This document shows, piece by piece, positions 5,063 through 30,411 of a DNA stretch of 32,471 bases. This DNA is from a virus, in the IMG/VR virus record IMGVR_UViG_3300037635_001997, positions 1 to 32,471 of that record; one strand, given 5' to 3'. How positions within the stretch are numbered: the stretch's first letter is position 1; every line of letters starts with the position of its first letter. Position numbers and translations under genes: made by a program. The notes under the pieces are model-generated. The model had not been told where the DNA came from and did no database searches. It saw only the letters and a program-made list of their open reading frames with translations.

Positions 5063-8000
5063 TCAATTCATGAGTCTCTTGTATTCATCTGTAATGATGT
5101 CGTAGAAGGTGAATGCGCCGGGAGTCAGCTTGCCGATACCCCTGATTATGTTGTCCGCTGCTTTCTCAAAGTCTCCACCTCTCGATAGTTCCATCACCCC
5201 ACCGAGTATCGGAATCTCCTTAGCCCATACCTTAGCCCCGGAGATGGCGCTAATCATTATATCAATCGCATCACCCGCAATGAACAAGCCATTCAGTGGC
5301 CCGAGGAGCATTGCTCTCAGGTAATTCTCTCCAGAGAAAGCATCCTCATCATCTGGACGTAGACCCATGCGCGTGACATCACTGACGAATTGGAAGGCGA
5401 GCGGGAGGAGCATGTGAGCAATGAAAGCCCTTCTCGCAAACTGAGTTTTCCCCTTCTTCTTTCCCGCGAGCATGTCCAAGCCGGACTCATACACGTTGGC
5501 GTAGTATTGACGGGGAGAGGTTTTATACATCGTGAAGAGTTTGAAGACCGACCCATCACCCTGGAAGGAGGATAGGTCTTTCAGCCCACCAGCCTGCTGT
5601 GAGCGATCCGACACCATCTCGGAGACGATCTCAGCTTTGCGCTTGGCATCTGCATCTGTCATGCCGTCACGCTTCGCTTGATCATACGCGTGCTCGCGAG
5701 CTATCCACCCCCCGATCATCACGGGAGCGATGTCACCTAGTTTGCCGGAGAGCATGCCAACCTGTAGAGCTTTCTTGAATTTATTCGCGCCAGCCTTGGA
5801 TCTTAATCCATCGATCACATCACGCTCGTAACCCTTCTTGAATCGCGTCTGAACGTAATCAGTGTTCCACATGTCCAGCATGTTCTTGACTGGATGCTTC
5901 ATGAACCGGGCGCTATACTTGGCGAAGTTCCCAATTCCCATATCAAACGCGTATGCTGGTAGAGAGGTCAACTGTTTCACCATGATAGACCACTTGAAGG
6001 ATAGGGAGTTGTAGGTGTGCGCCGCTCTCAACTTATCCATCCACGCGATGTGTGTCGCCTTTCGGTTGCCTCCATCGGCGAACCACTGAATTCGCTCCTC
6101 AATGGTCTTGATTGCATCTGAACCCACATACCCTTTGATATTATCCCGTAGCGTTTGATCCGAGAAGACGGAGCGAAGTGTCTTCACTGTGTCCGCCCAA
6201 GATGTGTAGTGATTTGTCTGGAGGGTGTGAGATACGTAGATGCTGAGTGCTCCTGCCTCCTGATCCATCGGAGCTTTATTCGCTGTTCGAGTGATCGTGA
6301 AGTTTGGATCGACCGACATCGCCTGCCTACCCTCACTGTCGATGCTCATCTCCTTCGCTTCCTTCTGAGCGATACGCACAGCAGGTGAGTAAAAGTCCGT
6401 CTTCGGTAGGCTGTATCCATTCTGTACGCGGAATACCTCGTTAATCTTGTGGTAGTTCTCCTCGTATTTGATCGTGAGCCACTCGCGGAGCCTCTTTGAT
6501 TCTGGCGAGAGGAATTCTTCCATGTCCTTCATGGTCTGCTCCGAGTATCCCTCATGCTCCATCGAACCCTTGAGACCCTCCTGCCTCCAGAGCATTGTCA
6601 GGTTGAGCGCCTGAGATTGCGATAGCGCCATGTTCTGCGCCTTACCCTGGTGCTGAGACTCATACTCCACCCGCGTGTTCGACTTGATCTTCTTGCCACT
6701 CTCTTGGATCTCAGCATATCGCGCCTGTATCGCTGCCCAGTCCGCTTCACTTATGCCGAGCGCCTCAATGGTGGCTTCCCCATTCAGGATGGACTGCACC
6801 TTGGAAGCTGGGAGTCTCTTGGTTGATGAACGACCATCCTTGCCATACTCCATCTTGGAGATATTGGTCTCATCGATCCGCTCCAGTTCAGCCATCACAT
6901 CCTCAATGCCTGTCCCGATACTAAGTTGACCACCAACCTTAACGCCGAAAATCTCACCGATCATCTCACGATACTCCTCCTGAGTCTCCATGTTGGCGCG
7001 ATCCTCCCGAGTTGTCGAGAGATGAACCATGGTTGAGAGCCGCTCATGCGTCTTACTCTTCATCGTCTCAGCATCCTTATTGCCGCGAGAGATATTATTC
7101 ATCAACCACTCGAACGAGATGTTCTTCCGCTGGAAGTCGCTCATGCCCTCAAGCTCAATATGTTCCGCGCCCAGATACTTGAGGTTGATCTTCCTCTTAC
7201 GGCGAGCATCCTTCAGCAGCTTAGCATCGGATTGATTGAGATCCCCTCGCCCACCAGTGACATCGTTATTAACAATCGAGATCGTCTCCTCAAGGAACTG
7301 ATTGAACTGCTCATCTGACATGGCCTTCAGTAGCTTGCCCTGCCTGTGGATCGTGTTGAGGTTCTGGTAGAAGTCACCCAAGGCATTCGCCTTCATGCCG
7401 TCGATGTTGCCAAATACGGCCAGGTTATCCCGCTTCTCTGTGAGCTTCTGAATCTCAGCCTCATCCGTCTCGGTCTCAAGCTTGCCGTCAATCTTCAGGA
7501 TCTTAGCCTCGACCTCCTCCCGCGTAAGCTTCGAGAGCTTCTCGATCTTCATTACGAGATCCGCGAACTTGAAATTTGAGTCCACCTTGGCTTGACCGCT
7601 TGACTTCTTCTTCGGGCGATTGGCTTTGAAGATCTTCTCGATCTGCTTGCGGTGCTTCCCTGAGATCCACTTGTCCACCTCGACATCCAGTTGCTCCAGC
7701 TTCTTCTCGAGGAATTCGAGTCGCTTCTGATCGCTGTTCAGTTTCCCGATCTGGACGAACCCGCCCATCTTCCCGCGCAATTCAGGCGGCAGGGTTTTAA
7801 GGACTGCATCATACATCACCAGCGAGCGACGAATGCGAGCTACTGGGTTGTAGTGCTTCTTCTGCTTGGCGACCTCCGCCTCCAGCCATTCATTAGCCTC
7901 GGTGCGAGCTTGCTTCGCGGTGTTGCGGATATTGCTCTTCGCCTCCTTATTCCTCTGGCGATTCTCCTGCACCTGCTGCCACTCTTGAGCGAGAGCATCA

Positions 8001-11000
8001 TACAGTTCCGAGACAGTCCCTTCTTGCAGTATGACTTGCCCATCCTGCTGAAGCCCGGCGAGCGCCTGCGCTGCTACGTCTGGCATCGTGTCCCCGCCAA
8101 ATACTGAGGGATGTAAACCCCCGGCATCATCGAAGTCTCCGTCCGTCTCCTGCATGCGACCTTCCGTGAGCGCCTTCTTTTTAGTTGTGAGCTTGTAACC
8201 TCCATCGATGAGAGCGGAGTGAACAGGCATATCTTTCACTGATACCGCGAGATCCGCGCCGAGAGTTCTCATCTCCGAATCCAGTTCCATCTCCAGCTCA
8301 TCGTGTCGAGCAGCCTGTCTGAATGCCGCCTCCTTCTTGAGGGACTTCATCGAGCGAGCATCAGGGAGAGCTTCCTGCTCCACCGTGCCACCGAAGATCA
8401 TCTTGGAGACATCACGCTTCAATGCGTCGATACGATCAACCAGTTGCTCGAAGACAACCGCCCGAGCCTCTGGAGCCCGAACCCTACGCATGACATTCTC
8501 AGAGAGATCCGAAAGCATACGAGCATCTCCGGGGGAGAAGGAGGGGCTTGAGGGGAAATACCCCTGCTCCTGCATGGAGTCGCCGGGCCACGTTACCTCC
8601 TTTGCCATGACAACCTTGCTAATGATCTTTGATTCTTGGGGATTTCCGCTGGAATCTACACCAAGGAATTCAGAATTATTCATCTCATCAGCTGCCGCCT
8701 TGGAGATGGTAACCCAGTCACCCGCATTGATCTGATCGGCAGACGCTGGAACCACTCGATAGATTGTTACCTTCGCCTCGGGATTGCCTCTCACTTTCTT
8801 GAAGATATTAAGCACCTCACTTTCGCCAGTCATTCCTGCTCCGTAATACTGAGCCGCATTCGGGCCGTAAATGTCTTCACCGAACATCTCCGTGAGATCG
8901 TTCAGGGTGGCATCATCGGGGGATGGTTGGTGCTGAATTCTGTAGGAGGTATCAGCTGGCGTGATGGAGAAGGATGGGCTGGCAGTGTCAACGACCTGCC
9001 CGTTTTCCTCGGTAATTGTGATGTCGGCATCGTTAAAGATGACGTAGTTGGATGTGCCTTCGCCGTTTGATCTACTGTCGCCGTCGAGGTAGCGGATGCC
9101 TTTGATGCCTGCTGCTGCTAGGGCTTCGGAGGCTTGCTTGTCCCCGCCTCTGAGAAGGAAGTCGCGGTAATACTCTGCCCCGTCCTTCCCTGAGAACTCG
9201 GCTGCTGCATCAATCGTCTCATACATCTTTTCCTCTTCCCTCTTCCATCTCTCGGAATTAAACCAACCCTCCTCCTTCGCCTTCCTGATTAGAGCAACCT
9301 CCGCATCGGGATTTCGCTCCACATAACCGACCACCTTTCTGACCAACTCACTCTGCTCACCCATCGGCTTGTCCCAGTCAAGAAGCTCGTCCTGCTCGAC
9401 GTTGAGGTCTACGGTGTAGAGGGAGCCTTGATCGAAGGTGATGTCGCTCTCGCTCTGGATTGATTCGATAGTTTTGGCGAGTCTCTCATAATACGGAAGC
9501 CCTCCCTGCTCCTCTGTGTAAGGCTCGCCATTCCGCGCATCCTTCAATAAAACCTCGGAAAGCTTCCTTGCGCTCTCGATGCCGTTATGGAAAACGTGAG
9601 CTATCGCGTGACGCTCTGGACTGGTAAAGTCATCACTGGCATATTGCTCACCTTGGAAGGAGTAAACCCCCGCAGAATTCCAGTCAGTCAATCGGTTCTT
9701 ATAATCACGCGCCACATCCTCGCTCTCTGCAAAGTAAAGCCCCCAGCCATACGCCTGTGCGCCCTCGCCTGTGCCAATGTTCTTCGTGCTGAACTTATCC
9801 ACCTTGTGCGGTGTCCCGTGGTGTGCTGTGATAGAGAAGCTAGCAGGGCCAACGACTCCACCGTCCTTAGTGGGATATGTCTTGGTCTCAGCGTTAGGTG
9901 TTACTGTTGTGTTGCCAAGTGATAAGAGACCAGCCTTCCCTGTTGAGAATGGAGTATCTACCTGCTGATCCTCCACGGCTTGACGAGCTTCCTCCAACTT
10001 CTTGAGCTCTCCCTCGGAAAGAGATTTTTGTTCTGATTGCGCGACCCCAACCTCCAGCCTCTCGAGGAGAGTCTCAGCTTGTGCAGTTTTGCCCTCGCGC
10101 AATACCCTCTTGATTTGGTCGTGGGTGTAATAAACCCACCCCTTACTCGCATGCTCCAGCGCCTCTTGGAATTTAGCGTCACCCTCTTGCGTCACCTGCT
10201 GACCGTCCACCATCTGCGTAGGTATCGCCTCGCGCTCCTGCTCGAACACCTCCTGTGAGTTTGTCCCCACAAGCATATCAGTGAGTTGATCCACCTGTGC
10301 CTGATCGAGATTGCCGTCACGCACTGCCTTCCTGATAATGGTGGCGCGTCTAAGCTGCAGACCGAAGAAGTCACGCATGGAACCAAGGAACGACTTGAGT
10401 TGCGCCGCACCGGGAACCCGAGCCTGCACCATTGCTGACAGGCTGCGCTGAATGAGTCCACCCATCTTGGAGTTCTTGCCCTTGCGTGAAGTAAGCGCCA
10501 GAGACTCAGAGAGTTCCGCGACCGCTTCATCGAGAGCGACCTCCTGATCGTAATCACTCAACCCCTCGAAATTCTCCGGCAGGAACTTCTCGCCAACCTT
10601 GGCAATGAGATTGTCCAACTCCCGCATCGAAGAGATCTGGTCAGCCCGTGTCCAAGCGCCGGACTCCATGAGCTTGCGGCGTTTAGCGTGACCTCGTTCA
10701 TGAATGAGCGTGAGGACGCTTGACCCATTGTGTATCTGCGTGACTGCTTCCTTTCGACCCATGTGACCTGCCGGGACATATACCCCCGCAATGTGCCCAG
10801 ATTGCCCCTCTGACATCACTTCCTGTGCAACCGCGCCAGTTCCACCATCGCGCTGCTCAAGAAGCTCACGCTCCGTCTGGAGGCGCCTATCAGAGCCTGG
10901 CATTGCTGCCTCTGCATCCGCATCTGTAAATGTTCCTGTGCCCACCTCTACAGCCTCACCTGACTGCTCCACATCCAAAGATGCCGCCTCGAATGACGCG

Positions 11001-13069
11001 AGAAGCTGCTGGAAATACTGGCGATTCTCCTCCTCTTTCATCTGAAGCTGTTCGAATACCTCCTCGGTTGCCTCGTGTGCTGTATCCACCTCGGCGAGTG
11101 TGTCACCAGTCAACCTATCAAACACCTCGAAGGTGGGCTTATCAGGAGTCCGGCGAACGGATGGTGAGACACCGAAGGTCTCCGCGTCCTCATTGGTCTG
11201 AGTGCGCATCTTTTGCATCTCCTCCAACTCCATAACGCTCGCTTGCGCGGTCTCAGACCAGGGAGCCCGTGTCTTGACGGCATTCTGGAAAGCCTCCACC
11301 ATCTCACGCGGATTCTTAGCCTCATCGAGCTTGGCGCTCGCCTCCTCTGTGATGCCGAAAGCTTTACGCTCCAATGGTGATGCGGTCTTCATCGCCTCAG
11401 CCCTGCTCTCCATCGACATGCCTCGACCAGCAACAATGGCACCCAACGGAGCCACTGCCACAAAGGTCGTGAGAGCCTTGTTGAAGTAGCCATCGAAGTG
11501 ACCATCCTCGCCATTCTTCCACTCGATATCGGGAACAATAGGATTGAATTCCTTCAAGGAATTAGTGATATCCTGCACGAGATCGGTAGTCGCGTGCTGA
11601 GTAAGCTCCACCGTAGTCTCCGCAGCCCCAGCGACAAACATCTTCGTCCCGAAGCGGCCCAACTTATTCGCAAAGATATTATCGATCTTGCCGAAAACCT
11701 TCCCCATCCCAGGTATCCTACCAGTCAATCCATATGACTGGAACTTCTCCAGAAGCATATTGGGAACAGCAGACACCATCGACATACCGCCAGCGAGATG
11801 ATACGCATCCTCCCGTGATCCGCCATTGGCTAGAATCTCACGTCGATACTTCTCACGATCAAATTCCTTCATCGTGCCGAATGACAGTGGCATACCCACA
11901 TACGGAATGAATGCTATCGCACTCGTAGTCAAGGCTCCGGGCATCGCGTAGACCCCCTCCTCAATAGCTCGCAATGTTGTATCCTTTGCTGCGAGTCCAC
12001 GCACTGGGTCCCAGTCCTGCTCATACGTATTCTGAAGTTCAAGCTGCCAATCGACCCCATCTCGCCAATCCCGGACCTCCTGCTCGTTTTCCTTGCGCTT
12101 CTCAATCGACCACTTCCTCGATCCCCAAGTGGCCCAGGGGGAATTTTCCGCCCATGGACCCACGAAGACATTGTGTGGAGCCACCTGCAGAACGTTTCTA
12201 AAATACTCCTCCGTTGCAAACGCTGTCCTGTCAAGAGCACCCATCACACCGCGCTTCGCGCTCGTCCCAAAGTTTGCGAGAAAGGAATTGCCTGCCTCAC
12301 TAGGATATTCCGTCGCGAGATCACGCAAGCTTGCGATGAAGAGATCCTTCTCCTCATCCGAGTAGTCCTTTGTTCTCCTCCATGCAAGAGCGAGCCATTG
12401 ATCCTCAGTGCCCATGTCATTGAAGGTTGTCCTGAGATCGTGAAGCATATCCACCCCGAACTTCTCCCGGATCGCATCCTGATTCTTCTGCCACCGATCG
12501 TTGATCTCCAGTCTATTAGCCTTTGTGAATTCGGCGTTCTCGTCACTCCACGCCCATTCCTTGAAATCCTTAAGGGCTTGTCCGCCTCCCGACATAGCTG
12601 AGAGTGTAGCTCTGCGGTCTAGATCATCCCAGAACGCTTGTTCCTTATCCTCACGCGCAAAATCACCCCTCATAGCCTCAAGGAATGCTGCATCATCCCC
12701 CGCGCCTGCACCATTGAATTTATGGTTCGCGATAGAATCCCTCAGTATGTCATGATCATTGGATGGTCGCTCGTGCTCCGGGAAGATCGAATCGATGTAT
12801 CCAGACACCAGCACGCGATTCCGCACCTCTGTCGTCTGCTCAGGCTCGAATTTATCGAAGTCCAGAGTGTGCTTCTTAATGGTCTTGTAGTTATCATGAC
12901 GGATCTTCAACCCCTCCTCCTGATACTTCTTCTCTGCCTCGATAGAGGGACGGAGGAGATCCTGCTCGAACGACTGCTCCTCAGCATAAGCCTCGGGAGT
13001 GAATGATGGAATCTGATCTGGTGGAGTGCTGCTGCTGAACCCTTCGTTGGAGGTAATTGTGGTTGCCAT
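5063..13069 (-). CDS. Giant internal virion protein (gp16 position) with zincin and ADP-ribosyltransferase domains
   Basis: 2668 residues, a quarter of the window. Layout: about 1-700 helical, with hydrophobic segments near 390 and 540; a zincin motif LIHERGHAKRR (His790, Glu791, His794) with a possible third ligand Glu848 in LDEAVAEL; a PARP-like ART domain about 1080-1345, with HGTPHKVDKF (His1084), YGWGLYFAE (Tyr1112) and a closing NYVIF (Asn1341); a second possible ART-like domain about 1376-1505 (YRIQHQPSPDD, VTIYRVVP, GDWVTIS); a coiled, Lys/Glu-rich 1650-2000; and a C-terminal part with hydrophobic segments around 2555-2615. Position after gp14- and gp15-like genes implies an ejected virion protein. 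The domains resemble those called polyvalent in mobile-element proteins, which act on the newly infected host. No lytic transglycosylase motif was recognised. Confidence 0.85.
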   Translation of the reverse strand: MATTITSNEGFSSSTPPDQIPSFTPEAYAEEQSFEQDLLRPSIEAEKKYQEEGLKIRHDNYKTIKKHTLDFDKFEPEQTTEVRNRVLVSGYIDSIFPEHERPSNDHDILRDSIANHKFNGAGAGDDAAFLEAMRGDFAREDKEQAFWDDLDRRATLSAMSGGGQALKDFKEWAWSDENAEFTKANRLEINDRWQKNQDAIREKFGVDMLHDLRTTFNDMGTEDQWLALAWRRTKDYSDEEKDLFIASLRDLATEYPSEAGNSFLANFGTSAKRGVMGALDRTAFATEEYFRNVLQVAPHNVFVGPWAENSPWATWGSRKWSIEKRKENEQEVRDWRDGVDWQLELQNTYEQDWDPVRGLAAKDTTLRAIEEGVYAMPGALTTSAIAFIPYVGMPLSFGTMKEFDREKYRREILANGGSREDAYHLAGGMSMVSAVPNMLLEKFQSYGLTGRIPGMGKVFGKIDNIFANKLGRFGTKMFVAGAAETTVELTQHATTDLVQDITNSLKEFNPIVPDIEWKNGEDGHFDGYFNKALTTFVAVAPLGAIVAGRGMSMESRAEAMKTASPLERKAFGITEEASAKLDEAKNPREMVEAFQNAVKTRAPWSETAQASVMELEEMQKMRTQTNEDAETFGVSPSVRRTPDKPTFEVFDRLTGDTLAEVDTAHEATEEVFEQLQMKEEENRQYFQQLLASFEAASLDVEQSGEAVEVGTGTFTDADAEAAMPGSDRRLQTERELLEQRDGGTGAVAQEVMSEGQSGHIAGVYVPAGHMGRKEAVTQIHNGSSVLTLIHERGHAKRRKLMESGAWTRADQISSMRELDNLIAKVGEKFLPENFEGLSDYDQEVALDEAVAELSESLALTSRKGKNSKMGGLIQRSLSAMVQARVPGAAQLKSFLGSMRDFFGLQLRRATIIRKAVRDGNLDQAQVDQLTDMLVGTNSQEVFEQEREAIPTQMVDGQQVTQEGDAKFQEALEHASKGWVYYTHDQIKRVLREGKTAQAETLLERLEVGVAQSEQKSLSEGELKKLEEARQAVEDQQVDTPFSTGKAGLLSLGNTTVTPNAETKTYPTKDGGVVGPASFSITAHHGTPHKVDKFSTKNIGTGEGAQAYGWGLYFAESEDVARDYKNRLTDWNSAGVYSFQGEQYASDDFTSPERHAIAHVFHNGIESARKLSEVLLKDARNGEPYTEEQGGLPYYERLAKTIESIQSESDITFDQGSLYTVDLNVEQDELLDWDKPMGEQSELVRKVVGYVERNPDAEVALIRKAKEEGWFNSERWKREEEKMYETIDAAAEFSGKDGAEYYRDFLLRGGDKQASEALAAAGIKGIRYLDGDSRSNGEGTSNYVIFNDADITITEENGQVVDTASPSFSITPADTSYRIQHQPSPDDATLNDLTEMFGEDIYGPNAAQYYGAGMTGESEVLNIFKKVRGNPEAKVTIYRVVPASADQINAGDWVTISKAAADEMNNSEFLGVDSSGNPQESKIISKVVMAKEVTWPGDSMQEQGYFPSSPSFSPGDARMLSDLSENVMRRVRAPEARAVVFEQLVDRIDALKRDVSKMIFGGTVEQEALPDARSMKSLKKEAAFRQAARHDELEMELDSEMRTLGADLAVSVKDMPVHSALIDGGYKLTTKKKALTEGRMQETDGDFDDAGGLHPSVFGGDTMPDVAAQALAGLQQDGQVILQEGTVSELYDALAQEWQQVQENRQRNKEAKSNIRNTAKQARTEANEWLEAEVAKQKKHYNPVARIRRSLVMYDAVLKTLPPELRGKMGGFVQIGKLNSDQKRLEFLEKKLEQLDVEVDKWISGKHRKQIEKIFKANRPKKKSSGQAKVDSNFKFADLVMKIEKLSKLTREEVEAKILKIDGKLETETDEAEIQKLTEKRDNLAVFGNIDGMKANALGDFYQNLNTIHRQGKLLKAMSDEQFNQFLEETISIVNNDVTGGRGDLNQSDAKLLKDARRKRKINLKYLGAEHIELEGMSDFQRKNISFEWLMNNISRGNKDAETMKSKTHERLSTMVHLSTTREDRANMETQEEYREMIGEIFGVKVGGQLSIGTGIEDVMAELERIDETNISKMEYGKDGRSSTKRLPASKVQSILNGEATIEALGISEADWAAIQARYAEIQESGKKIKSNTRVEYESQHQGKAQNMALSQSQALNLTMLWRQEGLKGSMEHEGYSEQTMKDMEEFLSPESKRLREWLTIKYEENYHKINEVFRVQNGYSLPKTDFYSPAVRIAQKEAKEMSIDSEGRQAMSVDPNFTITRTANKAPMDQEAGALSIYVSHTLQTNHYTSWADTVKTLRSVFSDQTLRDNIKGYVGSDAIKTIEERIQWFADGGNRKATHIAWMDKLRAAHTYNSLSFKWSIMVKQLTSLPAYAFDMGIGNFAKYSARFMKHPVKNMLDMWNTDYVQTRFKKGYERDVIDGLRSKAGANKFKKALQVGMLSGKLGDIAPVMIGGWIAREHAYDQAKRDGMTDADAKRKAEIVSEMVSDRSQQAGGLKDLSSFQGDGSVFKLFTMYKTSPRQYYANVYESGLDMLAGKKKGKTQFARRAFIAHMLLPLAFQFVSDVTRMGLRPDDEDAFSGENYLRAMLLGPLNGLFIAGDAIDIMISAISGAKVWAKEIPILGGVMELSRGGDFEKAADNIIRGIGKLTPGAFTFYDIITDEYKRLMN

Positions 13070-13072
13070 AGT

Positions 13073-15175
13073 TTATGCGTTAAGTTCTTTGAGTCTACGG
13101 ACCCCGAGGAGTCTGTTTGCTGGGTACGAGCTAACCTGCACCCTGTTGCCTTGATTGCCACCGAGGACGCGCATTCTGCCATTTTTATCGTATCCCTGAA
13201 AAAATCCCACGTGACCCTGCCAAGATTTTTGTGACCCCCACCGAAACACCACAACGTCTCCCGGTTGCGCGGATCGCGGATGCACGGATCTACCGACATC
13301 CAGCCAGGACTGAGCATTCAGTCTGCCAGTGTGCTCTAGCCCAGCCTCCTCCGCCACACCATTAACGAAGGCGGAACACCATGCTGTTGAGTCTGAGTGA
13401 TTATTCTTGTCGATCTGGTTGATCCATTTGCTGATCTGGGGATTGTTGCCAGATCCTGGAATCTCCTGAATACCAAGATAGCTCTGAGCGACACGTAGCG
13501 CGTCACCAGTTCCCACTGATGCTGTGGTCCGATCTCCCTGCTTCTGAAGCATCTTCGACTTGATGCTCTCCGTGGTAAATTCAACACCTAAGCTGTGAGC
13601 TTTCTGCTGGATCTCTTCAGGCGTTGCATCTGGATTACGATCAAGAAACTTCATGAACTTCTGACGAAGCTGACCTTTGATGCGCGTGTTCTCAACCTGC
13701 CGCTCACGCTCGGCACGCGCCGCCCTCCCTGCTGCCGTCGGATCAACCACCGTGGAAGATAGTGGTTTCTCGTGACGAATAGCGTCGAGCACTGCACGCT
13801 TACCTGCCGGGTAGTCATCATCCTGCTTCCACCCGGCACTCCAGTGTCGCTTCACCAACTCGCGAGGATCTTTCCCCTTTTTACTCCCCTCACCAAACCA
13901 CTTCTTCGAAGCTGCCACGATCTCTTCCGCGTGATCCTCTTGGAATCCTGCGCGTAGCAGGTTTTCTGGATCGGATAGGAAGTCATCGTATAGATGGGCG
14001 CTGAGTGACATCTCAACCTGTGGAGCCGCCTCCGGTATAAGGGCGCTACTGCCCCCGAGTGATTCCTCGAATATTTTCATGGAGACATCCCTCTTCTCCT
14101 TAGACGCAGCCCATTGCCCTGATCGCTTCGCTTTGAGAACCCTGGTATATTCCGCCTTCTGATCGGGGTCCTTTATCTGCCTGATCATCCCCGAAATCTT
14201 CACGAAGTCATTATCCGTCTCGTCCGCATCCTCCGCAGAATACGACGCGATGAGATCCCCTACCTGTCCAAGCAGTGTTGGTTGGTAGACGCTACTGGTG
14301 CGGATACCCTCCGCGAGATACTCCTGACGCTTGATGTGCTCATCCCGCAGCGACTCCCGTGCTTTAGGACGCAAGTGGGGGGTCATCGCCTCTAGCTGGT
14401 CGATGCTCATCTCGTCACTGTAAATCAAATCAAGGACATTATCGGTCTCCTCGTATCCCTTATTTCGCCGAACCGTCTTAGCATGACTCTGAAGAGCGAG
14501 CCAATCGCCAGCCATGTCACCCTCCCAAGGCTCCTTATTCCTCTCAGCCCAGCCCATGGGATCTCCTGCAATCTCATTCATCGCATCCTCCTTCACCTGC
14601 TTCTTGGCCTGATCAACCTGACGCATGCCAACCTCCTCCAGTTGCACCTCGATCATCTCCTTAGTGAGGTAAACGCCCTCGGAGTCACGGATGAGTTGAG
14701 ATGCACCGGCGAAGTCGTTGTCAGCTAAGCGGTTCTTAATCCGCTCGTTGTTGATCTGGCGACCATTGCGGACCTGCTGGAGGGAGGCATTAGTGGTGAT
14801 CTTGTTGAGTCGAGTGGCTCCGGCATGATTGAGCCTCTCGGTGAGTTCGTTGCGGAACTTACCCGTGTAAGCATCATTACTAAGGATCTTGGCTTTCGCC
14901 TCCTCGAAGTGCTGCTTGGCAATCCCCGCATGCAACCTGGGATCTGGTGTCCGGGCTAGCTTGGCCTGCAATGCCCCCTCAGCCTCCGAGAATTGAAGCT
15001 CGGCTTGACCGGTCCACTGGCGCTTCTGCTCATCGTGCATCTGCTCCGCGAGCTTGCCAGTCTGAGCGATAGCCCCACCGAGATTACTGACAGCACGAGT
15101 CTGCGCTGAGTTGTCCTGCGCTCTCTGCTGTGGGATGCCCCCGCCAGCTTGTCCTTTTCCGATTGGTTGTGCCAT
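13073..15175 (-). CDS. Internal virion protein C (gp15-like) with C-terminal CHAP/NlpC-type hydrolase
   Basis: A 700-residue ejection-type protein. About 1-560 is helical and charged, beginning with a Gln-rich stretch (GGGIPQQRAQDNSAQTRAV). About 565-700 is a cysteine peptidase/amidase domain of the CHAP/NlpC-P60 type: YLGIQEIPGSGNNPQISKW, then STAWCSAFVNGVAEEAG with catalytic Cys600, GDVVVFRWG, and GHVGFF with His655. This domain probably cuts cell-wall peptide bonds during entry. In T7 the virion peptidoglycan activity is a transglycosylase in gp16, so the activity appears to have moved to a different fold and subunit here. Next to the giant gp16-position gene, with 3 bases between them. 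Confidence 0.85.
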   Translation of the reverse strand: MAQPIGKGQAGGGIPQQRAQDNSAQTRAVSNLGGAIAQTGKLAEQMHDEQKRQWTGQAELQFSEAEGALQAKLARTPDPRLHAGIAKQHFEEAKAKILSNDAYTGKFRNELTERLNHAGATRLNKITTNASLQQVRNGRQINNERIKNRLADNDFAGASQLIRDSEGVYLTKEMIEVQLEEVGMRQVDQAKKQVKEDAMNEIAGDPMGWAERNKEPWEGDMAGDWLALQSHAKTVRRNKGYEETDNVLDLIYSDEMSIDQLEAMTPHLRPKARESLRDEHIKRQEYLAEGIRTSSVYQPTLLGQVGDLIASYSAEDADETDNDFVKISGMIRQIKDPDQKAEYTRVLKAKRSGQWAASKEKRDVSMKIFEESLGGSSALIPEAAPQVEMSLSAHLYDDFLSDPENLLRAGFQEDHAEEIVAASKKWFGEGSKKGKDPRELVKRHWSAGWKQDDDYPAGKRAVLDAIRHEKPLSSTVVDPTAAGRAARAERERQVENTRIKGQLRQKFMKFLDRNPDATPEEIQQKAHSLGVEFTTESIKSKMLQKQGDRTTASVGTGDALRVAQSYLGIQEIPGSGNNPQISKWINQIDKNNHSDSTAWCSAFVNGVAEEAGLEHTGRLNAQSWLDVGRSVHPRSAQPGDVVVFRWGSQKSWQGHVGFFQGYDKNGRMRVLGGNQGNRVQVSSYPANRLLGVRRLKELNA

Positions 15176-15187
15176 GTTCTTGAGTTG

Positions 15188-15712
15188 TTAATATCCTACG
15201 ACCTCCGCCTTACTTGCGTTCGATGCATCCGCGCCACCAAAGCCATAAGCTTTACCGTAAGTGTTCGCGACTGAATTGAATCCACTAAGCGCCGCCGCTG
15301 CTGTGTTAATTCCACGGGAACTCTTCGCTTGATCCGCTTGGAAGTCGTAAGAGAATGCCTGGTTCTGGTATCCCGCCTGCGCTCTCTGAGACCGGATCGA
15401 GTCATCCATGATGCGAAGCTCTAGATTCCCGACCTCCTCATTAAGGAAGTTTTCATCGCCACCCTCGATCAACCCATTCCCCTTCTCGAGTAGTTGCGCC
15501 CGACGCGCTCCGAGATACTTGCGATTCTGCTCCTGCTTGCGTAGGGCATTCTCCCGATCATCCAGTGACTTGATCTTCGCCGCCTTGCGGGTCTGTTCAG
15601 CATTGAACTCCGCCGCAGCCTGAGCGTCCTTGCTTTGCTGGTGAGCTGAGTATACTTGAACACCAGCCCCGACAACGGAGCCGATCACAGAGATTAAGGG
15701 AAGTGCTGCCAT
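15188..15712 (-). CDS. Internal virion protein B (T7 gp14-like)
   Basis: 174 residues with a hydrophobic N terminus (PLISVIGSVVGAGVQVYSA), then a long Gln/Ala/Arg-rich coiled coil (KDAQAAAEFNAEQTRKAAK onward) and a Gly/Ala-rich tail. This is the layout of gp14-type ejection proteins, which enter the outer membrane to start the DNA channel. Gene order (nozzle, gp13 position, this gene, then gp15- and gp16-like genes) supports it. The gap to the next gene is 12 bases; no SD is seen. Confidence 0.8.
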   Translation of the reverse strand: MAALPLISVIGSVVGAGVQVYSAHQQSKDAQAAAEFNAEQTRKAAKIKSLDDRENALRKQEQNRKYLGARRAQLLEKGNGLIEGGDENFLNEEVGNLELRIMDDSIRSQRAQAGYQNQAFSYDFQADQAKSSRGINTAAAALSGFNSVANTYGKAYGFGGADASNASKAEVVGY

Positions 15713-15715
15713 ATC

Positions 15716-16123
15716 TTAAAGTGTTTTATAGATTGAAATGTTTGGTGTCATATCCACCTGAAACCCCAGCTTCTGGGACAGTGAAGCAACTCCGATGTGC
15801 GGGGTCATTCCGTATATGAGACTGTATCCGTGCTCCCTGAGTCGCTCACATAGGAACTCCTCCGCTAGCTTCGCGGCCTTGTATCGCTTCATTGCCCCGA
15901 TCTCCGGGTTAGTCATGAGGTAGTCGATATACGCCCGGGGGATGTTGTTGCTCATGTCCGCGCAAACGAAACATAGGTATTCATCATCCTCTTTGACCAG
16001 CACTCCAAGCTTGGGAAGCAGTTCAGGATCAGGGAAGCGACCCTCGAACCAACTCTCGATCATAAGATACAGAGAGTGCGACTCATCTGTATCCTCGTAG
16101 GTGTATGTCTCGACTTCCATCAT
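15716..16123 (-). CDS. GNAT-like protein in the T7 gp13 position
   Basis: 135 residues. The C-terminal half has the shape of a GNAT N-acetyltransferase: a helix (RYKAAKLAEEFLCERLREHG), a strand (YSLIYGMTP) and then GVASLSQKLGFQVD, which matches the usual final helix and strand before a KLGF-type motif. The acetyl-CoA loop (Q/RxxGxG/A) is not obvious, so it may be inactive or structural. It starts in an ATGA overlap with the nozzle gene and ends 3 bases before the gp14-like gene, a place where several podoviruses carry an acetyltransferase-like internal or tail-associated protein. Substrate unknown. Confidence 0.6.
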   Translation of the reverse strand: MMEVETYTYEDTDESHSLYLMIESWFEGRFPDPELLPKLGVLVKEDDEYLCFVCADMSNNIPRAYIDYLMTNPEIGAMKRYKAAKLAEEFLCERLREHGYSLIYGMTPHIGVASLSQKLGFQVDMTPNISIYKTL

Positions 16124-18564
16124 TTGCCTGCCATCTGGTATTCAAGGGTGATTGCTTGAACATTGAGGGGGAGGGGTGATCTCCCCTGTAGTTCGATAGA
16201 AGTATTTCTACTCCAGTCACCATTTACCGTGACTTTTGCGGAGTCTCCAGTCTGCAGGAGGGGAGCTTGGCTTGATTGAAAATTGGGGAAGGACAGCGTG
16301 CTCCAATCACCTTCATTGATGCGCATCTTGCAAGTCCCTGATTTCCAGAGTCTTACTATTGCGTTGGTGATCTTCTTTGTTGCGCCCATCGTTCCTTGGG
16401 ATTCTAAGAACATGGGGATGACTGTATACTCATATGGCCTCCCAATGATAGCAATATCGGTGGGGTAGTCGAGAGACACAGAACCACCTGATACGGTCCT
16501 CTCGCCTATCTTAGCTCCATCACATAGGATCGCGACGCTCTCGCCTTCCAAGTGCTCGAGACCGCTCACGCTGGTCATGCCCGATCCCTCCACGCGTATA
16601 CCATCATCGACGAACCACATCTCGGAGGTGTCATCGTTCTGAAGTCCACGATACTGACCCAGCTTGACATACTCGATATTGCGAACCGTAGAGCCATTGA
16701 CGGATCTCTTGACGATGTAGCACACCTGATCCTCCTCGTCTGCTCGCGGATTGACTGAGATGGACTCGATCTCCCCGTCGGTCTTTCGACGATACCACGC
16801 AAAGATATTCTGATTCTTCTCGTAAAGCATGCTCGCAAGCTCACCGTCAGCCCGTACACCGTGCCATGTTGGGTAGCGTTGGCGCTGGTAAGCCGTCTGA
16901 GTGACCCCACCCTCTAGGATGTGATCGGCTAACATGGTCTCCGAGTTCGATGAGTAGTAATCTTCGATGCCCGTGATCTCCTGATTCCTCAGAGTTCTGC
17001 CCTCTGGTTGGAGGTATAGCACCGTACCATTGATGGCCTCTGCCCTCAACTTGCCTGATCCGTGGTTGGTGTCCCACCTTAGGTCATAGTTGTTGTATCC
17101 GAACGCCTCAGTCGTATTCTCCTGCACGATCACGCCTTCCGCTAGGTTTGTTCCCACTCGAAGCTCTCGAAGGCTCTCAAGCCATTGCACGTGCGGCGCT
17201 CCATTGCGATTCACACCAACCATGAAGCCGGAGTCAGCATCATTGCGCTCGCGATAGTTGAAGTAGTTACCCGGCTGAGACAGGAGGACATCATCACCAC
17301 CCAAGCATCGCCGCTCCTTGTGGAAGCAGATTGCCCGTGGATAGCCTCGGCGCTTGCTGAAATATTGCTCGCGCCACTCAATCGTCGCCTCCCCGGTAAG
17401 GAAGGGTTCAATCACCTCAGCGGTCACCTCGGTCTCGCTAGTATAGCCCGTGATCTTGAGGAGACCCTTCACCGTGGGATCTGAAACCTCAATCGTCAAT
17501 CTTGGCTGATTTGCCCCTAAGCTTGTCCCGGTGCTCTTATCCTCGAATCGCGAACGCAAGAAGATAGGCTCAGAGAGAGATAGTGTTACGCGTTCATTCC
17601 TTGATGCACCCTCGATCTCAAACTTCCTCCGAGTCTTCCAGGAGCTAGAATCACCAGGAGTCTTGGTCTCCTCCAGATAGACTGTCCAATTCGCAATACC
17701 ACCAGTCTCGAATACCACATCCCCGAAGGCGTAGAAGGCAGCGCTGTGACCTGTAACATCGTTAGACTTAGCCATGTAAGCCTGTAGAACCTCCTCCCGA
17801 TCATGGGAGATACTAATGATTTGATCAATACTGTTTGCGCTGAATAGGTCCGTGGAAGAAGTCAGTGTTGGGGTGTCACCAATCTGCAAGCCTCCCGCGT
17901 CCTCCCATTTCTCATCATCCAAATCCGTCTCGAACACCCCAGAAGTATGAGCAACAGCGCATCGATACGACTTACCATCCTCAAATGCGTAGTCATCCAC
18001 CGCGTATGATGTCGAGGTAGCCCAAGGGTCCGCGTAGTCTGTCAACGTTAATGTGGTGTCCGTGGTGTTCACGGGAGCCAGCGCCGGGAAGTTAGGGGAT
18101 ACCGAGTAATCAATCGTCTGAAGCTCCCAGTCATCGTTAGCCGTCCTCACCAACATCCTCTCCTCGTAGTCAGGGTGGACGATCATCACGATGTCGTTGA
18201 TCTGCTCAAATTGTAACTCGAAGAGATCCTCCTCCTGATATGGTGATGCCTCCTCATACGGGGTCGGCCCATCCATGACCGGAGCCTGGTTGAGGAAGAA
18301 GCGGAAGTATTCATGACCCACCTCGATCTCCATGAGGTCCTGATCCTTTGAGAAGCTGAAGGGGACTAGGCGGGATTTCCTGTCGGAATACTTAGTAGTG
18401 GTGATGTGCTCTGTGCCTGGCGCACTCAGGATCGTTCCGAATGGCATCGGCTGGAAGTTCTCCAGCTTCTGACAACCCTTGGAATACTTGGCGGTGTCAA
18501 CGCGAGGGTCCATGAACTCAGTGAGTTCTCCACCGTTGAATGTGATTTGTGATGCTTTGGGCAT
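16120..18564 (-). CDS. Tail tubular protein B / tail nozzle (T7 gp12-like)
   Basis: An 814-residue nozzle protein. The N terminus ITFNGGELTEFMDPRVDTAK with KLENFQPMPFGTILSAPG is diagnostic of the family, and LVPFSFSKDQDLMEIEVG follows as expected. The middle has KRRGYPRAICFHKERRCLGG and FNYRERNDADSGFM, also conserved in nozzle proteins. The C terminus is beta-rich. Six copies would cap the gp11 adaptor ring and close the tail tube before ejection. The stop overlaps the next ATG as ATGA. Length is close to T7 gp12. Confidence 0.92.
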   Translation of the reverse strand: MPKASQITFNGGELTEFMDPRVDTAKYSKGCQKLENFQPMPFGTILSAPGTEHITTTKYSDRKSRLVPFSFSKDQDLMEIEVGHEYFRFFLNQAPVMDGPTPYEEASPYQEEDLFELQFEQINDIVMIVHPDYEERMLVRTANDDWELQTIDYSVSPNFPALAPVNTTDTTLTLTDYADPWATSTSYAVDDYAFEDGKSYRCAVAHTSGVFETDLDDEKWEDAGGLQIGDTPTLTSSTDLFSANSIDQIISISHDREEVLQAYMAKSNDVTGHSAAFYAFGDVVFETGGIANWTVYLEETKTPGDSSSWKTRRKFEIEGASRNERVTLSLSEPIFLRSRFEDKSTGTSLGANQPRLTIEVSDPTVKGLLKITGYTSETEVTAEVIEPFLTGEATIEWREQYFSKRRGYPRAICFHKERRCLGGDDVLLSQPGNYFNYRERNDADSGFMVGVNRNGAPHVQWLESLRELRVGTNLAEGVIVQENTTEAFGYNNYDLRWDTNHGSGKLRAEAINGTVLYLQPEGRTLRNQEITGIEDYYSSNSETMLADHILEGGVTQTAYQRQRYPTWHGVRADGELASMLYEKNQNIFAWYRRKTDGEIESISVNPRADEEDQVCYIVKRSVNGSTVRNIEYVKLGQYRGLQNDDTSEMWFVDDGIRVEGSGMTSVSGLEHLEGESVAILCDGAKIGERTVSGGSVSLDYPTDIAIIGRPYEYTVIPMFLESQGTMGATKKITNAIVRLWKSGTCKMRINEGDWSTLSFPNFQSSQAPLLQTGDSAKVTVNGDWSRNTSIELQGRSPLPLNVQAITLEYQMAGK

Positions 18565-26069: not shown

Positions 26070-26294
26070 TTATTTGTTGGGAGTTTCAATCCCGGTATCA
26101 TTGCGGATAGACCGCATGAGAGCTAGTATACGTCCTGCACCTGCCCGTTCCTCTGGCGGCAGGTCTGGATTGGTGATGATGTCATCGATGATTGAATCGA
26201 TAAGGATCTCACCGCCCTCGGACAGTAAGATCTGTTGAATCTTGGATCGCTTGGTAGCATCAAGACGGTAGGTGATTGCGTTCGGACTGATCAT
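26070..26294 (-). CDS. Hypothetical 74-aa protein after portal
   Basis: 74 residues, mostly helical, with no recognised family. The N terminus (MISPNAITYRLDATKRSKIQQILLSEGGEI) is followed by an acidic helix and then LPPEERAGAGRILALMRSIRND. Its ATG overlaps the portal TAA by one base (TAATG), which strongly suggests translation by re-initiation. Position between portal and scaffold suggests a minor head or assembly factor, but nothing in the sequence shows a function. Confidence 0.65.
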   Translation of the reverse strand: MISPNAITYRLDATKRSKIQQILLSEGGEILIDSIIDDIITNPDLPPEERAGAGRILALMRSIRNDTGIETPNK

Positions 26295-27937
26295 TATGAG
26301 AGTGCGCCTAGCATAGCCTCAGGGTCTTGGACGGAAGAGAGATCCTTGGCCACACCGCCTGCGGTCTGAGCCATCTCTGCCATCTGAGCCTGTTGAGCTG
26401 CTTGCTGTTGAGCTTCCTGCTGTTCCTGATACTCGTCCTCGCTGAGGAGATCGTCCTCGTCCTGACCGAGATCACGCCAGATACGTGTCTGGATCTTCTT
26501 AATGTCGTGGACATTGGCACGGCCATCAGCAGCAGCCAGGTTGACGATTGCATCCATCATGCCCATGGCCTCGACGGCTTTGGAGCGCTTGTGGTTGCTT
26601 GTGAAGGTGTTGTCGAAAGCAAACTGCGGCATGCGTGGCTTCCCTGTGACCTCATTGTAGGCTTCATCTGGTAGCTCAATCACTCCACGCTCGACGAGGG
26701 AGTTGAATGCCCAGCCAACGATTGGCTTGGTGTGATCCTGCTCGAGTGCTGTGAGTGTGGGATTCGCCTGAGCATTAAGCTCTTCCCGCCTCATGTTGGC
26801 CTCGGTAGCAGTCATCTCACCCTGGTTGCGGTTGAACATGTTGAACAGATGCCCGTGGTAAGCCTCATCGATGGAGTCTTGCAGCTTGCTCCAGATATCC
26901 ATGCCTACCTGATAGTTGCCACCACCAGAGAGCTCATAGACTGGATTCTTACCAGCGGCAGAGGTTTCGGCGTAGTAATTGACCTCAGCAGCACCAAGAC
27001 CAACACCCTCCTCCTTCATGTAGCTAGGAGCCATGACCGGTGGGACAGCAGCACGCTCACCCATCACCATCATGAATTTCCCGGCGTAGTTGGCCTTGTA
27101 TGCATCTGGGAGGATCTCATGGGCGGGACAGTAGCCCCAAGGACTTCCATCGACCTCGTAGCGACTGGATACAATCTCGAAGTGATCATTGCCGGAGTCG
27201 AGCACGACATGCTTGCTGTCACGCTCAACGACCTTCACGGAGTATGCCATGCCCTTGTTGCCAGCATCGGCCTTCATCTTCCACTTAGGCTGCTTCTCGA
27301 TGACAACGAGGAAATCGTGTGTGGTGCTACGACGCTGAGGGTCTGCTGCCTCTTGCTGTAGCTTCGTAGAAAGGTTCTCACGCCCCCACATCTCAGCAGC
27401 ACGGTAGGCAGGCCATTTGTAGCAGGCTCCGAAGGTATCGACCTTCTCAGAATGATCGTGGTCGATGACGTAGTTGAGGGGATCGAAGCGACAGAAGTTC
27501 ATGACTTCCTCGCCATTGTCATCCTGCTCCCACTTCATTCGCATCGTCCCGGTTCCCAGCTGAGACCGATCAAAGATGGCGCGGTGATTGACTGTGTGGA
27601 AGTTGGAAGAGCGTAGGTAATGCATGACAGCCTCTCCTGCTTCACGGTAGACCTTCTCGAGACTGAGGTTCTTGCGATCCTCCCATGCTGGACGCATCAC
27701 AAGCCAGTCACGGTCGCGAGGATACAGCATCGAAGTGATGCCGTTGGCCTGCATGCGGGACTTAGTTCTCAGTGTCGTATCGTAAATCTCATTGTGTGGC
27801 ACGTATCCACCAACATTCCCACGGCCATTGTAGTTGCGGGAGTTCATGAGCCAAGCAGTCTCCTGCCATAGATACTCATGAGGGAGGCGTAGTGCCTCCA
27901 ACTGCGTGAATCGCTCGACCGTATCCTTGCCTGTCAT
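26294..27937 (-). CDS. Portal (head-tail connector) protein, T7 gp8-like
   Basis: A 547-residue portal of the podovirus head-to-tail connecting family. The N-terminal part is characteristic: LPHEYLWQETAWLMNSRNY, TTLRTKSRMQANGITSMLYP and WLVMRPAW, followed by a GTGTMRMKWEQ segment. The middle holds the RNQGEMTATEANMRREE stretch typical of the portal stem and wing region. The C terminus is Gln/Ala-rich and probably forms the crown or barrel helices. Twelve copies would form the packaging vertex through which the terminase drives DNA and to which the tail tube attaches. It lies directly after the 56-aa protein and ends in a TAATG overlap with the next gene. Confidence 0.93.
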   Translation of the reverse strand: MTGKDTVERFTQLEALRLPHEYLWQETAWLMNSRNYNGRGNVGGYVPHNEIYDTTLRTKSRMQANGITSMLYPRDRDWLVMRPAWEDRKNLSLEKVYREAGEAVMHYLRSSNFHTVNHRAIFDRSQLGTGTMRMKWEQDDNGEEVMNFCRFDPLNYVIDHDHSEKVDTFGACYKWPAYRAAEMWGRENLSTKLQQEAADPQRRSTTHDFLVVIEKQPKWKMKADAGNKGMAYSVKVVERDSKHVVLDSGNDHFEIVSSRYEVDGSPWGYCPAHEILPDAYKANYAGKFMMVMGERAAVPPVMAPSYMKEEGVGLGAAEVNYYAETSAAGKNPVYELSGGGNYQVGMDIWSKLQDSIDEAYHGHLFNMFNRNQGEMTATEANMRREELNAQANPTLTALEQDHTKPIVGWAFNSLVERGVIELPDEAYNEVTGKPRMPQFAFDNTFTSNHKRSKAVEAMGMMDAIVNLAAADGRANVHDIKKIQTRIWRDLGQDEDDLLSEDEYQEQQEAQQQAAQQAQMAEMAQTAGGVAKDLSSVQDPEAMLGALS

Positions 27938-28147: not shown

Positions 28148-29455
28148 CTATAGGTTGCCGACACCGATAGTCCTCTGTTTACCCGGCCCAGTGGACTCGA
28201 ACGTCCTTAGCTCGGGCAGCATCTTGTTCTGGATTGCCTCAGAGATATATCCGAATGCATCAGCCGGGTGTGACGACCAGTCATGAGCTATTTTGTTCTC
28301 GATGTAGCCTCCTAGACGGCTCTCCTTGCGATGGTATGCACTAAGAGCTTCGATTAAACCACCCTCACCGGCTAAAGACTCATGAAACCAGAGCTGATTG
28401 AACATATCTGTCATCATGCGGATGCGCTTCTCGTCTGCACCATGAGGGCCGCGTGGTAGAGTCTTCACGTTCATGAGCCCTGATTCCAACAGCTTGTCGG
28501 CAAAGGACATATTGTCCGCATGCTTGTTGTCTCCATCATGTGGAAGGAAGTGATACCCGTAGTTGTAGCCCTTGGCTATCATATGAGCTACGCGCTCGCC
28601 GGTCTTGAGATCCAGACCAGAGTCGCAGTCGATTATACGATAAGTCAGACCCACACGCTGGAAGTAGATGACGCAAGTATTTGCAGGAGCTCCCAAGTCC
28701 CAGGTTGTATGGACCAGTGCAGACTCATCGATGGGGAATGGTCCGATGCGCCCCTCGTTCTCAGCCCTAGCCATGTCGGCAGCGTAGATTGCGCCAGGTC
28801 TACCAATGGAGAAGTCGCACTCGTATTCCTGTCTGAAGTCAGAATCGGACACGGTATAGTCATCCTGGATGCTTTTAAGCTCCTCAGCAGGCAATATTCC
28901 ACTCTCGCTTGCACGGATGACCGCGCTGTGCCAATCCTCAGCAGCCTCAGCCTGCAAATGGCGCTTGTAGAAAGCATTCTTCCCCTTGGGTGTGCCGATA
29001 AACCATGCGAACCCCTGATAATCGGAGAGACACGGACGGATTACCTGCGACCACGCAGCGGGAACGATGTCGGCTGGCTCATCCATGATCACACCGTCGA
29101 GGTAGATTCCCCGCATCCGATCATAGTTATCACCAGAGTAGAGCCTGATGGTTGCGCGATTTGGCAGAGTGACAGTCAAGTCGGACTCGTTGATCTTCAC
29201 CTGAGGGACTTTACCTAGGAAATCTTTGAGGTATGCCCATGCGATGTCCTTGGCTTGATCCCTTGTGGGTGCAACGTACGCGAAACGAGGGGGAGGGCCG
29301 GGTCTCTTGAGTTCGAATGCTACCTTGATGAGCTTCTGAAGGACCGCGAACGTCTTACCGGCACGACGATGAGCGACGATGCAAGCCCATCTCTTGTTAC
29401 TGTGGAGGAATGGTTTGAATGCCGCCCTCGGATTTAGCTCTAGAGTGACGTTCAT
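28148..29455 (-). CDS. terL: Terminase large subunit (packaging ATPase/nuclease)
   Basis: A 435-residue packaging motor. The ATPase half has a Walker A variant AHRRAGKT (residues 28-35), a Walker B VIMDEP (Asp125, Glu126) and a coupling-type segment WFIGTPKGKN near 151-160. The nuclease half starts with the RNase H-like strand HTTWDLGAP (Asp253), followed by HDGDNKHADN near 306-315, and ends with HPADAFGYISEAI, whose Asp is the usual third metal ligand. Length and motif order fit a complete protein. It is coupled to the small subunit by an ATGA overlap. In T7 the terminase genes close the genome; here they open the structural block. Confidence 0.95.
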   Translation of the reverse strand: MNVTLELNPRAAFKPFLHSNKRWACIVAHRRAGKTFAVLQKLIKVAFELKRPGPPPRFAYVAPTRDQAKDIAWAYLKDFLGKVPQVKINESDLTVTLPNRATIRLYSGDNYDRMRGIYLDGVIMDEPADIVPAAWSQVIRPCLSDYQGFAWFIGTPKGKNAFYKRHLQAEAAEDWHSAVIRASESGILPAEELKSIQDDYTVSDSDFRQEYECDFSIGRPGAIYAADMARAENEGRIGPFPIDESALVHTTWDLGAPANTCVIYFQRVGLTYRIIDCDSGLDLKTGERVAHMIAKGYNYGYHFLPHDGDNKHADNMSFADKLLESGLMNVKTLPRGPHGADEKRIRMMTDMFNQLWFHESLAGEGGLIEALSAYHRKESRLGGYIENKIAHDWSSHPADAFGYISEAIQNKMLPELRTFESTGPGKQRTIGVGNL

Positions 29456-29816: not shown

Positions 29817-30116
29817 TTAAGAGATGGATTCTTCCGCCACTATCTCCTTGAATTTCTTGCTCAACAAGAATTTTCGGGCCGCACGTCGAGCGAGTCTGGC
29901 TGTTCGAGCCTTGGACATAATGTGATTGGTGGGCAGTGGTCCTCCCCGTTCCTCGATCATCTCTTTCCAATCCTCAACTGCTTGAGCGATTGTATTGCGG
30001 AAAGGGCCATGGATGTCCTTGCCCTGTCGTTCTGTTGTCACCTTGCGAAAGATCTTCGCAAAGTAAAACCCGTCTTGTTCGTAAATGCCCTCTGGGAGGC
30101 CTCGGTTATTGGTCAT
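29817..30116 (-). CDS. Hypothetical small basic protein upstream of terminase
   Basis: 99 residues, not assigned to a family. The first 60 residues hold an aromatic, mixed beta-type segment (GIYEQDGFYFAKIFRKV) followed by a helix (TIAQAVEDWKEMIEERG), an arrangement reminiscent of small AP2-like phage DNA-binding domains. The C-terminal third is strongly basic and helical (SKARTARLARRAARKFL), consistent with nucleic-acid contact. It overlaps the metallopeptidase-like gene by 11 bases and ends 5 bases before the small terminase start, so it is part of the packaging operon. A role in DNA binding or packaging is inference from charge and position only. Confidence 0.6.
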   Translation of the reverse strand: MTNNRGLPEGIYEQDGFYFAKIFRKVTTERQGKDIHGPFRNTIAQAVEDWKEMIEERGGPLPTNHIMSKARTARLARRAARKFLLSKKFKEIVAEESIS

Positions 30117-30411
30117 TGGTTCTGTTCTTTAGTCGTTTTAGGATTCGTTCATATGCTGGGAAAAAGATCTCGTCGATGCAGCGGACGCATGATTCCTCCT
30201 GAAATGAGTCGAGGAAGGAGATCCCAGACAGGTGGAAGGCTGCGTGGAGCATCTCATGCCGTAGGGTGGGCAAGTATTCCTGCTCTGGGAGATTCTCAGC
30301 GAGTTGAATGGTTCGTTTGTCATGTGAATACTGCCCGTAGCAGTCATCGAGTTCTGTTCGTTGTATTTTAATTCTATGGCCAGCGATCATGACTGAGTTG
30401 ATTGCTGTCAT
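30106..30411 (-). CDS. Small zinc metallopeptidase-like protein (HExxH)
   Basis: A 101-residue protein with a zincin signature RHEMLHAAFH (His52, Glu53, His56) inside a predicted helix, preceded by a beta-hairpin-like N-terminal half. The size and motif match the small phage ImmA/SprT-like minimal metallopeptidases that often sit beside terminase genes. A third zinc ligand could be an acidic residue in the CIDEIF segment, but this is not certain. An internal Met8 is an alternative start; neither has an SD. It overlaps the next gene by 11 bases, which implies translational coupling. It is the first gene after the hairpin that follows the methyltransferase. The role in the phage cycle is unknown. 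Confidence 0.65.
   Translation of the reverse strand: MTAINSVMIAGHRIKIQRTELDDCYGQYSHDKRTIQLAENLPEQEYLPTLRHEMLHAAFHLSGISFLDSFQEESCVRCIDEIFFPAYERILKRLKNRTNDQ

Follow-up and report, generated by a model that had tools for sequence, protein, structure and literature searches.

A giant protein at the T7 gp16-like position of a short-tailed phage, with a PARP-like ART domain in an exchangeable slot

The gene and its neighbours

The window, by which we mean the whole 32,471-nucleotide stretch of IMG/VR virus record IMGVR_UViG_3300037635_001997, is the late region of a terminase/portal podovirus, with genes in the order terminase large subunit, portal, scaffold, capsid, tail A, tail B, acetyltransferase-like, gp14-like, gp15-like, P0001 and fibre. 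The large terminase (28148-29455) was assigned from its own sequence and the head-tail connector/portal (26294..27937, minus strand) from its match to PF12236 (E 4e-50); the scaffold and capsid genes were assigned by position. Tail A corresponds to phrog_394, and tail B, a tail protein in the T7 gp12-like position (16120..18564, minus strand), matches phrog_376 (E 2e-134). Downstream of these lie a gp14-like internal virion protein (15188..15712, minus strand; phrog_418, E 5e-15; PF24072 T7_gp14, E 4e-4) and a gp15-like protein (13073..15175, minus strand), assigned by domain match and synteny. The latter ends in a C-terminal TIGR02594/CHAP hydrolase domain, which places the wall-degrading function in the gp15-like protein and not in the protein at the gp16 position.

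P0001 is a single open frame, ATG to stop, at 5063-13069 on the minus strand and encodes 2668 amino acids, exactly the coordinates and length given by the first-pass annotation, which left the strand unstated. Its placement at a T7 gp16-like gene position also stands: gp14-like and gp15-like genes precede it, and of 15 relatives whose sequence reaches far enough upstream, 12 show this synteny too (gp15-like gene in 12, gp14-like in 13, tail B in 13). The distant phage vir555 carries a 1974-residue protein, also with an ART domain, at the same gene position, and its gene order is the same from tail B to this gene.

Searches of P0001 against Pfam and PHROGs returned no gp16 family and no transglycosylase match, and neither P0001 nor alignment A10, used as a profile against PDB sequences, retrieved anything relevant. 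Two PHROG labels, ‘ParB C-terminal domain’ and ‘endolysin’, were judged to be carry-over from multidomain profiles because the matches cover only parts near the profile ends.

Three further genes in the window were recorded in passing. The small acetyltransferase-like gene between tail B and the gp14-like gene (15716-16123) is kept in 11 of the 15 relatives, and a similar gene has likewise been noted for phiGT1 and other podoviruses. A small open reading frame at 30106-30411 contains the motif LRHEMLHAAFH and is a candidate SprT-like or other zinc protease, and one at 31384-32454 resembles a metallophosphoesterase (GDILHSD and GNHD motifs).

Scaffold and cargo slot

Scans that used clade alignments of the C domain yielded 71 full-length family members including P0001, all metagenomic contigs save a few contigs from bacterial genomes, and 68 of them could be sliced into front, slot and back. 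The front (918±44 aa) and back (921±47 aa) are nearly constant in length, while the slot between them measures 823±296 aa and ranges from 243 to 1491 aa. In P0001 the constant scaffold includes the conserved front region N (residues 110-590; 11300..12742, minus strand), whose profile was found in 69 of 71 members, and the back region with its M2 and C domains (residues 1724-2668; 5066..7900, minus strand), with profiles in 71 of 71; the variable cargo slot occupies residues 946-1723 (7901..10234, minus strand). The C domain recurs in Gundel_1 and vir555, and a search of the back domain against Pfam gave nothing convincing (two weak single-member matches).

Whole blocks of the slot, or single domains, pass from phage to phage at a much higher rate than the scaffold diverges. 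In the 27 pairs in which front and back identity both reach 75% or more, median slot identity is 24% and 21 pairs fall below 40%; in one such pair (L020 and L107) front and back are each 96% identical and the slots 8%. The reverse case is also found, with front and back both 23% identical around slots that are 75% identical (L012 and L143), and back regions are exchanged as well (14 pairs). The closest relative of P0001, L002 (86-93% identical; back about 86%), lacks the ART domain, keeps the following domain, d3, at 93% DNA identity and carries another domain after it, while a segment of the P0001 ART (9075..9430, minus strand) matches L009 at 89.9% DNA identity, with scaffold proteins that are about 22% identical in the two phages. 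In L213 (contig G001) the cargo order is reversed, d3 then ART, and the back region is a separate frame of 662 aa. Some of these swaps are possibly assembly chimeras, yet the same pattern appears in dozens of contigs.

The cargo is diverse: segments between the separator motifs described below form about 45 clusters, and the slots of relatives contain, above Pfam cut-offs, PBECR5, LPD37, LPD13, LPD23, DUF7178 and ART-PolyVal. In P0001 itself the only such polyvalent domain is ART-PolyVal, below cut-off, and of the 58 members that the back domain retrieved, 22 have an ART. The most unusual property of P0001, the location of its ART in a slot with rapid exchange, was missed by the first-pass annotation.

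Domains and separator peptide

The ART domain spans residues 1078-1362 (8984..9838, minus strand). PF18760 (ART-PolyVal, of the PARP-like Tox-ART-HYD2 type) matches residues 1083-1125 weakly (E 6.7e-4; 20.9 bits against a curated cut-off of 31.2), and L020, which has the same ART type, scores 32.4 bits, above the cut-off. AF2 modelling of residues 700-1366 with 46 sequences (mean pLDDT 80) recovered the ART fold for which structure prediction had been proposed. Foldseek of the model against viral proteins gave a best E of 7e-15, with named ART-PolyVal proteins among the matches, and structural alignment matched chain 9k3a_B of the cyanophage A4 pre-ejectosome (Z 9.6; 150 residues, 4.8 A), tankyrase-2 (Z 8.3) and the catalytic domain of diphtheria toxin (Z 6.3). 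His1084 in strand 1 and Tyr1112 in strand 2, both located where they had been claimed, are conserved, respectively, in all 106 and in 107 of 108 unique ARTs in the alignment. The third triad residue, in strand 5, is Asp in 82 of 105 relatives, Asn in 9, Ser in 8 and Glu in 4; in P0001 it is Asn1346, adjoined by Asp1347, and not the usual Asp, so that ART activity may be reduced or absent.

Could P0001 be an ordinary ejection protein of the T7 gp16 type, its ART and zincin resemblances incidental? Its gene position and the absence of any full-length database match would fit, but we consider this highly improbable because the structural alignment and the viral Foldseek matches already contradict it, as do the ART fold with its triad, the transfer of cassettes, the curated polyvalent domains in the slots of relatives and the lack of a gp16 or transglycosylase family match.

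Two further observations concern the distribution of this ART type. Within the domain, an insert (window 9490-9700, about residues 1124-1194) resembles that of L010, a phage outside the family, whereas the flanking halves resemble L009, a pattern that reads as mosaicism within a single domain. In Sulfitobacter phage phiGT1, gene 5 (L003:4918-6081) encodes the same ART type as a separate small protein between the portal and scaffold genes, likely a free-standing relative of the cargo.

The third domain, d3 (residues 1374-1507; 8549..8950, minus strand), matches phrog_2579 (E 1e-21) and is found again in many phages; in an alignment of 36 sequences one Arg and one Glu are invariant, and there is a strand of the GDW type. 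AF2 modelling gave a confident structure (pLDDT 84), yet the structural matches are weak: CNFy 576-684 (Z 4.3), Tse6 (Z 3.1) and Vis (Z 2.9), all of them ART-superfamily or ART-like folds. Residues 1370-1510, earlier singled out for structure prediction, thus hold a real, separately transferred domain with a confident model, and the weakness of its fold matches leads us to call it probably ART-like. The isolated d3, and a domain specific to L002 (d4), had no family match in Pfam. The latter, L002:13640-14143, is present in this closest relative and absent here, and its HST and VFD motifs hint at a further ART-like domain.

At the end of the front region lies a zincin-like core with a conserved helical tail (residues 735-945; 10235..10867, minus strand; profiles in 68 of 71 members). 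The HERGH motif was found as claimed at residues 790-794 (10688..10702, minus strand), and with Glu848, the predicted third zinc ligand (10526..10528, minus strand), it gives an HExxH with a downstream Glu (H790, E791, H794, E848). Seventeen members carry HExxH, and their alignment, selected on that motif, has just six invariant columns among about 300: H790, E791, H794, G804, E848 and G919. E848 was outside the selection criterion, and in A10 Glu stands at this position in 17 of 17 HExxH rows and 17 of 17 other rows. This conservation goes beyond chance. The module also has a weak profile match (E 0.008) to the HEIGH module of vir555. The modelled region, in turn, is almost all helix, where a zincin would show a three-stranded sheet together with helices, and the fold searches with the two-domain model (Foldseek/VIA) listed no zincin among hits filled by helical bundles and ART, a result that does not imply absence of the fold. 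Of the 68 members, 51 have lost HExxH, and nine of these carry HExxE. The zincin assignment thus stands for its ligands, which are conserved, and not for its fold, which was not recovered; we call the P0001 module a zincin-type one that is possibly active here and is not general in the family.

An alternative interpretation is that the domains in the slot are mere passengers, structural or in decay, which are ejected but enzymatically dead and contribute only bulk or spacing. The Asn in place of Asp in the triad of P0001, the frequent loss of HExxH and the six-fold variation in slot length around a retained scaffold agree with this, but we consider it improbable because ART His and Tyr are essentially invariant over 105 aligned sequences, with Asp kept in 82, and because bulk alone fails to explain the many unrelated enzyme-like slot domains known from other polyvalent proteins.

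The domains in the slot are set apart by a short peptide, [FY]S[ILV]. In P0001, FSI stands directly before the ART (1078-1080; 9830..9838, minus strand) and again between ART and d3 (1367-1369; 8963..8971, minus strand), and variants are found as FST at 1041-1043 (9941..9949, minus strand) and as FSP after d3 at 1511-1513 (8531..8539, minus strand). Across slots the motif was observed 274 times against 43 expected from shuffled slots, its density elsewhere in the protein is 14 times lower, and 26 of 26 full ARTs scored begin 1-2 residues past a motif. Since the motif was first spotted by eye in a few members, it was then tested on members found later; in these hold-out slots YSI, NYS and FSI were the top three over-represented tripeptides, and 175 distinct motif contexts were found against 27 expected, an enrichment of more than six-fold. 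The FSI that precedes the ART opens the first ART strand of the AF2 model (residues 1076-1086), so the motif at that site may be structural too. The idea that the peptide is a general feature of polyvalent ARTs was rejected, as it is missing from most ARTs beyond the family and its closest kin.

Because the motif lies at cassette boundaries, it might instead be a DNA recombination site that drives cassette exchange and has no role in the protein. Codon usage disfavours this: at the motif, Phe and Ile are encoded as in the background, and serine is split between AGC and TCC, which argues for selection on the peptide and not on the DNA, and linkers of one gene differ from one another at synonymous positions. 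We regard a DNA-level site as very unlikely, and short-flank homology could nevertheless assist cassette exchange.

It has also been proposed for zincins of polyvalent proteins that they act in autoprocessing (Iyer 2017, PMC5512222, section 8), and the zincin of the front region could cut P0001 at its [FY]SI linkers before packaging or after injection. The location of the motif at domain boundaries and the invariance of the zinc ligands wherever HExxH is present are consistent with such cutting. However, motif density in the slot per 100 aa is about the same in members with HExxH (0.45), with HExxE (0.54) and with neither (0.50), so processing by the protein’s own zincin cannot be general, a point that leaves aside a protease acting in trans. 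As the linker persists in the 51 of 68 members without HExxH, the own zincin is not the required processor; we rejected it as obligatory linker cutter for the family as a rule, and we judge autoprocessing unlikely as an account of the peptide. Most likely the linker is a spacer that is recognised as such and allows the addition, and perhaps the release, of domains.

Proposed role and known systems

The ART fold, the conserved zincin ligand set and d3 are joined in one polypeptide among late virion genes, which bears out the polyvalent character first suggested for P0001; of that earlier interpretation the gp16-like position and the PARP-like ART fold hold as well, together with the zincin ligands but not the zincin fold. 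We consider it probable that P0001 takes the place of T7 gp16 as an ejection protein inside the capsid of a short-tailed phage and also serves as a carrier of effector domains, which would make it a polyvalent protein. The constant front, with its zincin-like module, and the constant back would serve packaging and passage through the envelope; the slot holds one PARP-like ART and one probable ART-like domain here and other polyvalent domains in relatives. This cargo would enter the host together with the phage DNA, and the ART domains would modify host or defence targets with NAD+ before phage gene expression. Packaging is suggested by gene position and by the precedent of Anabaena phage A-4L. 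The annotation of Gundel_1 QQV91510 as a structural protein was set aside as virion evidence, the main text of its paper giving no proteomics for QQV91510.

The A-4L precedent rests on chain 9k3a_B, whose sequence is identical to A-4L ORF27, a gene that adjoins an internal-protein gene in the internal-protein block. ORF27 contains the ART motif YHGT...GSGTYF and aligns with the P0001 ART by sequence at motif level only (E 0.02). An ART-fold region thus sits in a solved podovirus pre-ejectosome. ORF27 parallels P0001 in its gene block and in a structurally similar ART-fold region (Z 9.6), and it differs in that no linker-delimited slot was recognised in it.

The polyvalent class and the proposal of its injection are already known: Iyer 2017 (PMC5512222) described polyvalent proteins that combine zincin and ART domains and for which injection along with the phage DNA was predicted. 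P0001 resembles them in its large size, in its several unrelated enzyme domains (zincin MPTase, H/Y ART), in its place among late virion genes of a portal-terminase phage and in having relatives that carry PBECR and LPD domains. It differs in the Asn at the third ART position, in the frequent loss of HExxH within its family and in that this family can be divided into a scaffold that stays fixed and a slot whose content is exchanged, with a peptide as separator. Neither ‘linker’ nor ‘interdomain’ is used in the main text of Iyer 2017 (PMC5512222), and in the open-access literature we found no description of a fixed scaffold with an exchangeable, peptide-delimited slot.

Other ejected proteins offer partial parallels. 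T4 Alt, an ADP-ribosyltransferase packaged in the head, injected and acting at the start of infection (PMC9503650, PMC5512222), is a tested precedent for an injected ART, although it is an R-S-E ART and a separate protein of a contractile-tailed phage, unlike the H-Y ART inside the giant putative ejection protein P0001. The virion RNA polymerase of N4 and other schitoviruses is a giant internal protein that is ejected as infection starts; its C1 domain has an HExxH motif (PMC12633501), and some of its relatives carry an ART (Iyer 2017, PMC5512222). P0001 differs in matching no RNA polymerase family and in its gene context. With T7 gp16 it shares the position after gp14-like and gp15-like proteins, and it differs in lacking a sequence match and a transglycosylase, the wall-degrading domain being in the gp15-like neighbour. 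P0001 is also twice as long as T7 gp16.

In genome collections, contigs more than 45% identical carried only the labels Verrucomicrobia, Akkermansiaceae, Verrucomicrobiaceae bacterium E54 and one Acidobacteriia bin. By these labels, hosts of the family as a whole are probably often Verrucomicrobiota. One member (L208) lies on a phage-sized contig of 34.5 kb, JAKZES010000056.1, in the Verrucomicrobiaceae bacterium E54 assembly, and it may lead to a host that can be cultured.

A broader reading, which we offer tentatively and hold to be possible but short of probable, is that the protein at the gp16 position is a general delivery vehicle, such that any domain placed between [FY]SI peptides would be packaged, ejected and delivered, with the peptide as a specific signal for processing, unfolding or release that some factor of the phage or the host, and not the protein’s own zincin, would read.

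If the proposed role is correct, the ejection machinery of short-tailed phages bears an interchangeable cargo of enzymes that act early against the host or its defences, and this cargo would evolve like the toxin tips of polymorphic toxin systems. Pairs of phages that are near-identical save for the slot make the function of injected polyvalent domains, a long-standing question, directly testable. The separator peptide would give a handle on how folded enzymes pass through the narrow podovirus tail, and could guide the use of phages for protein delivery.
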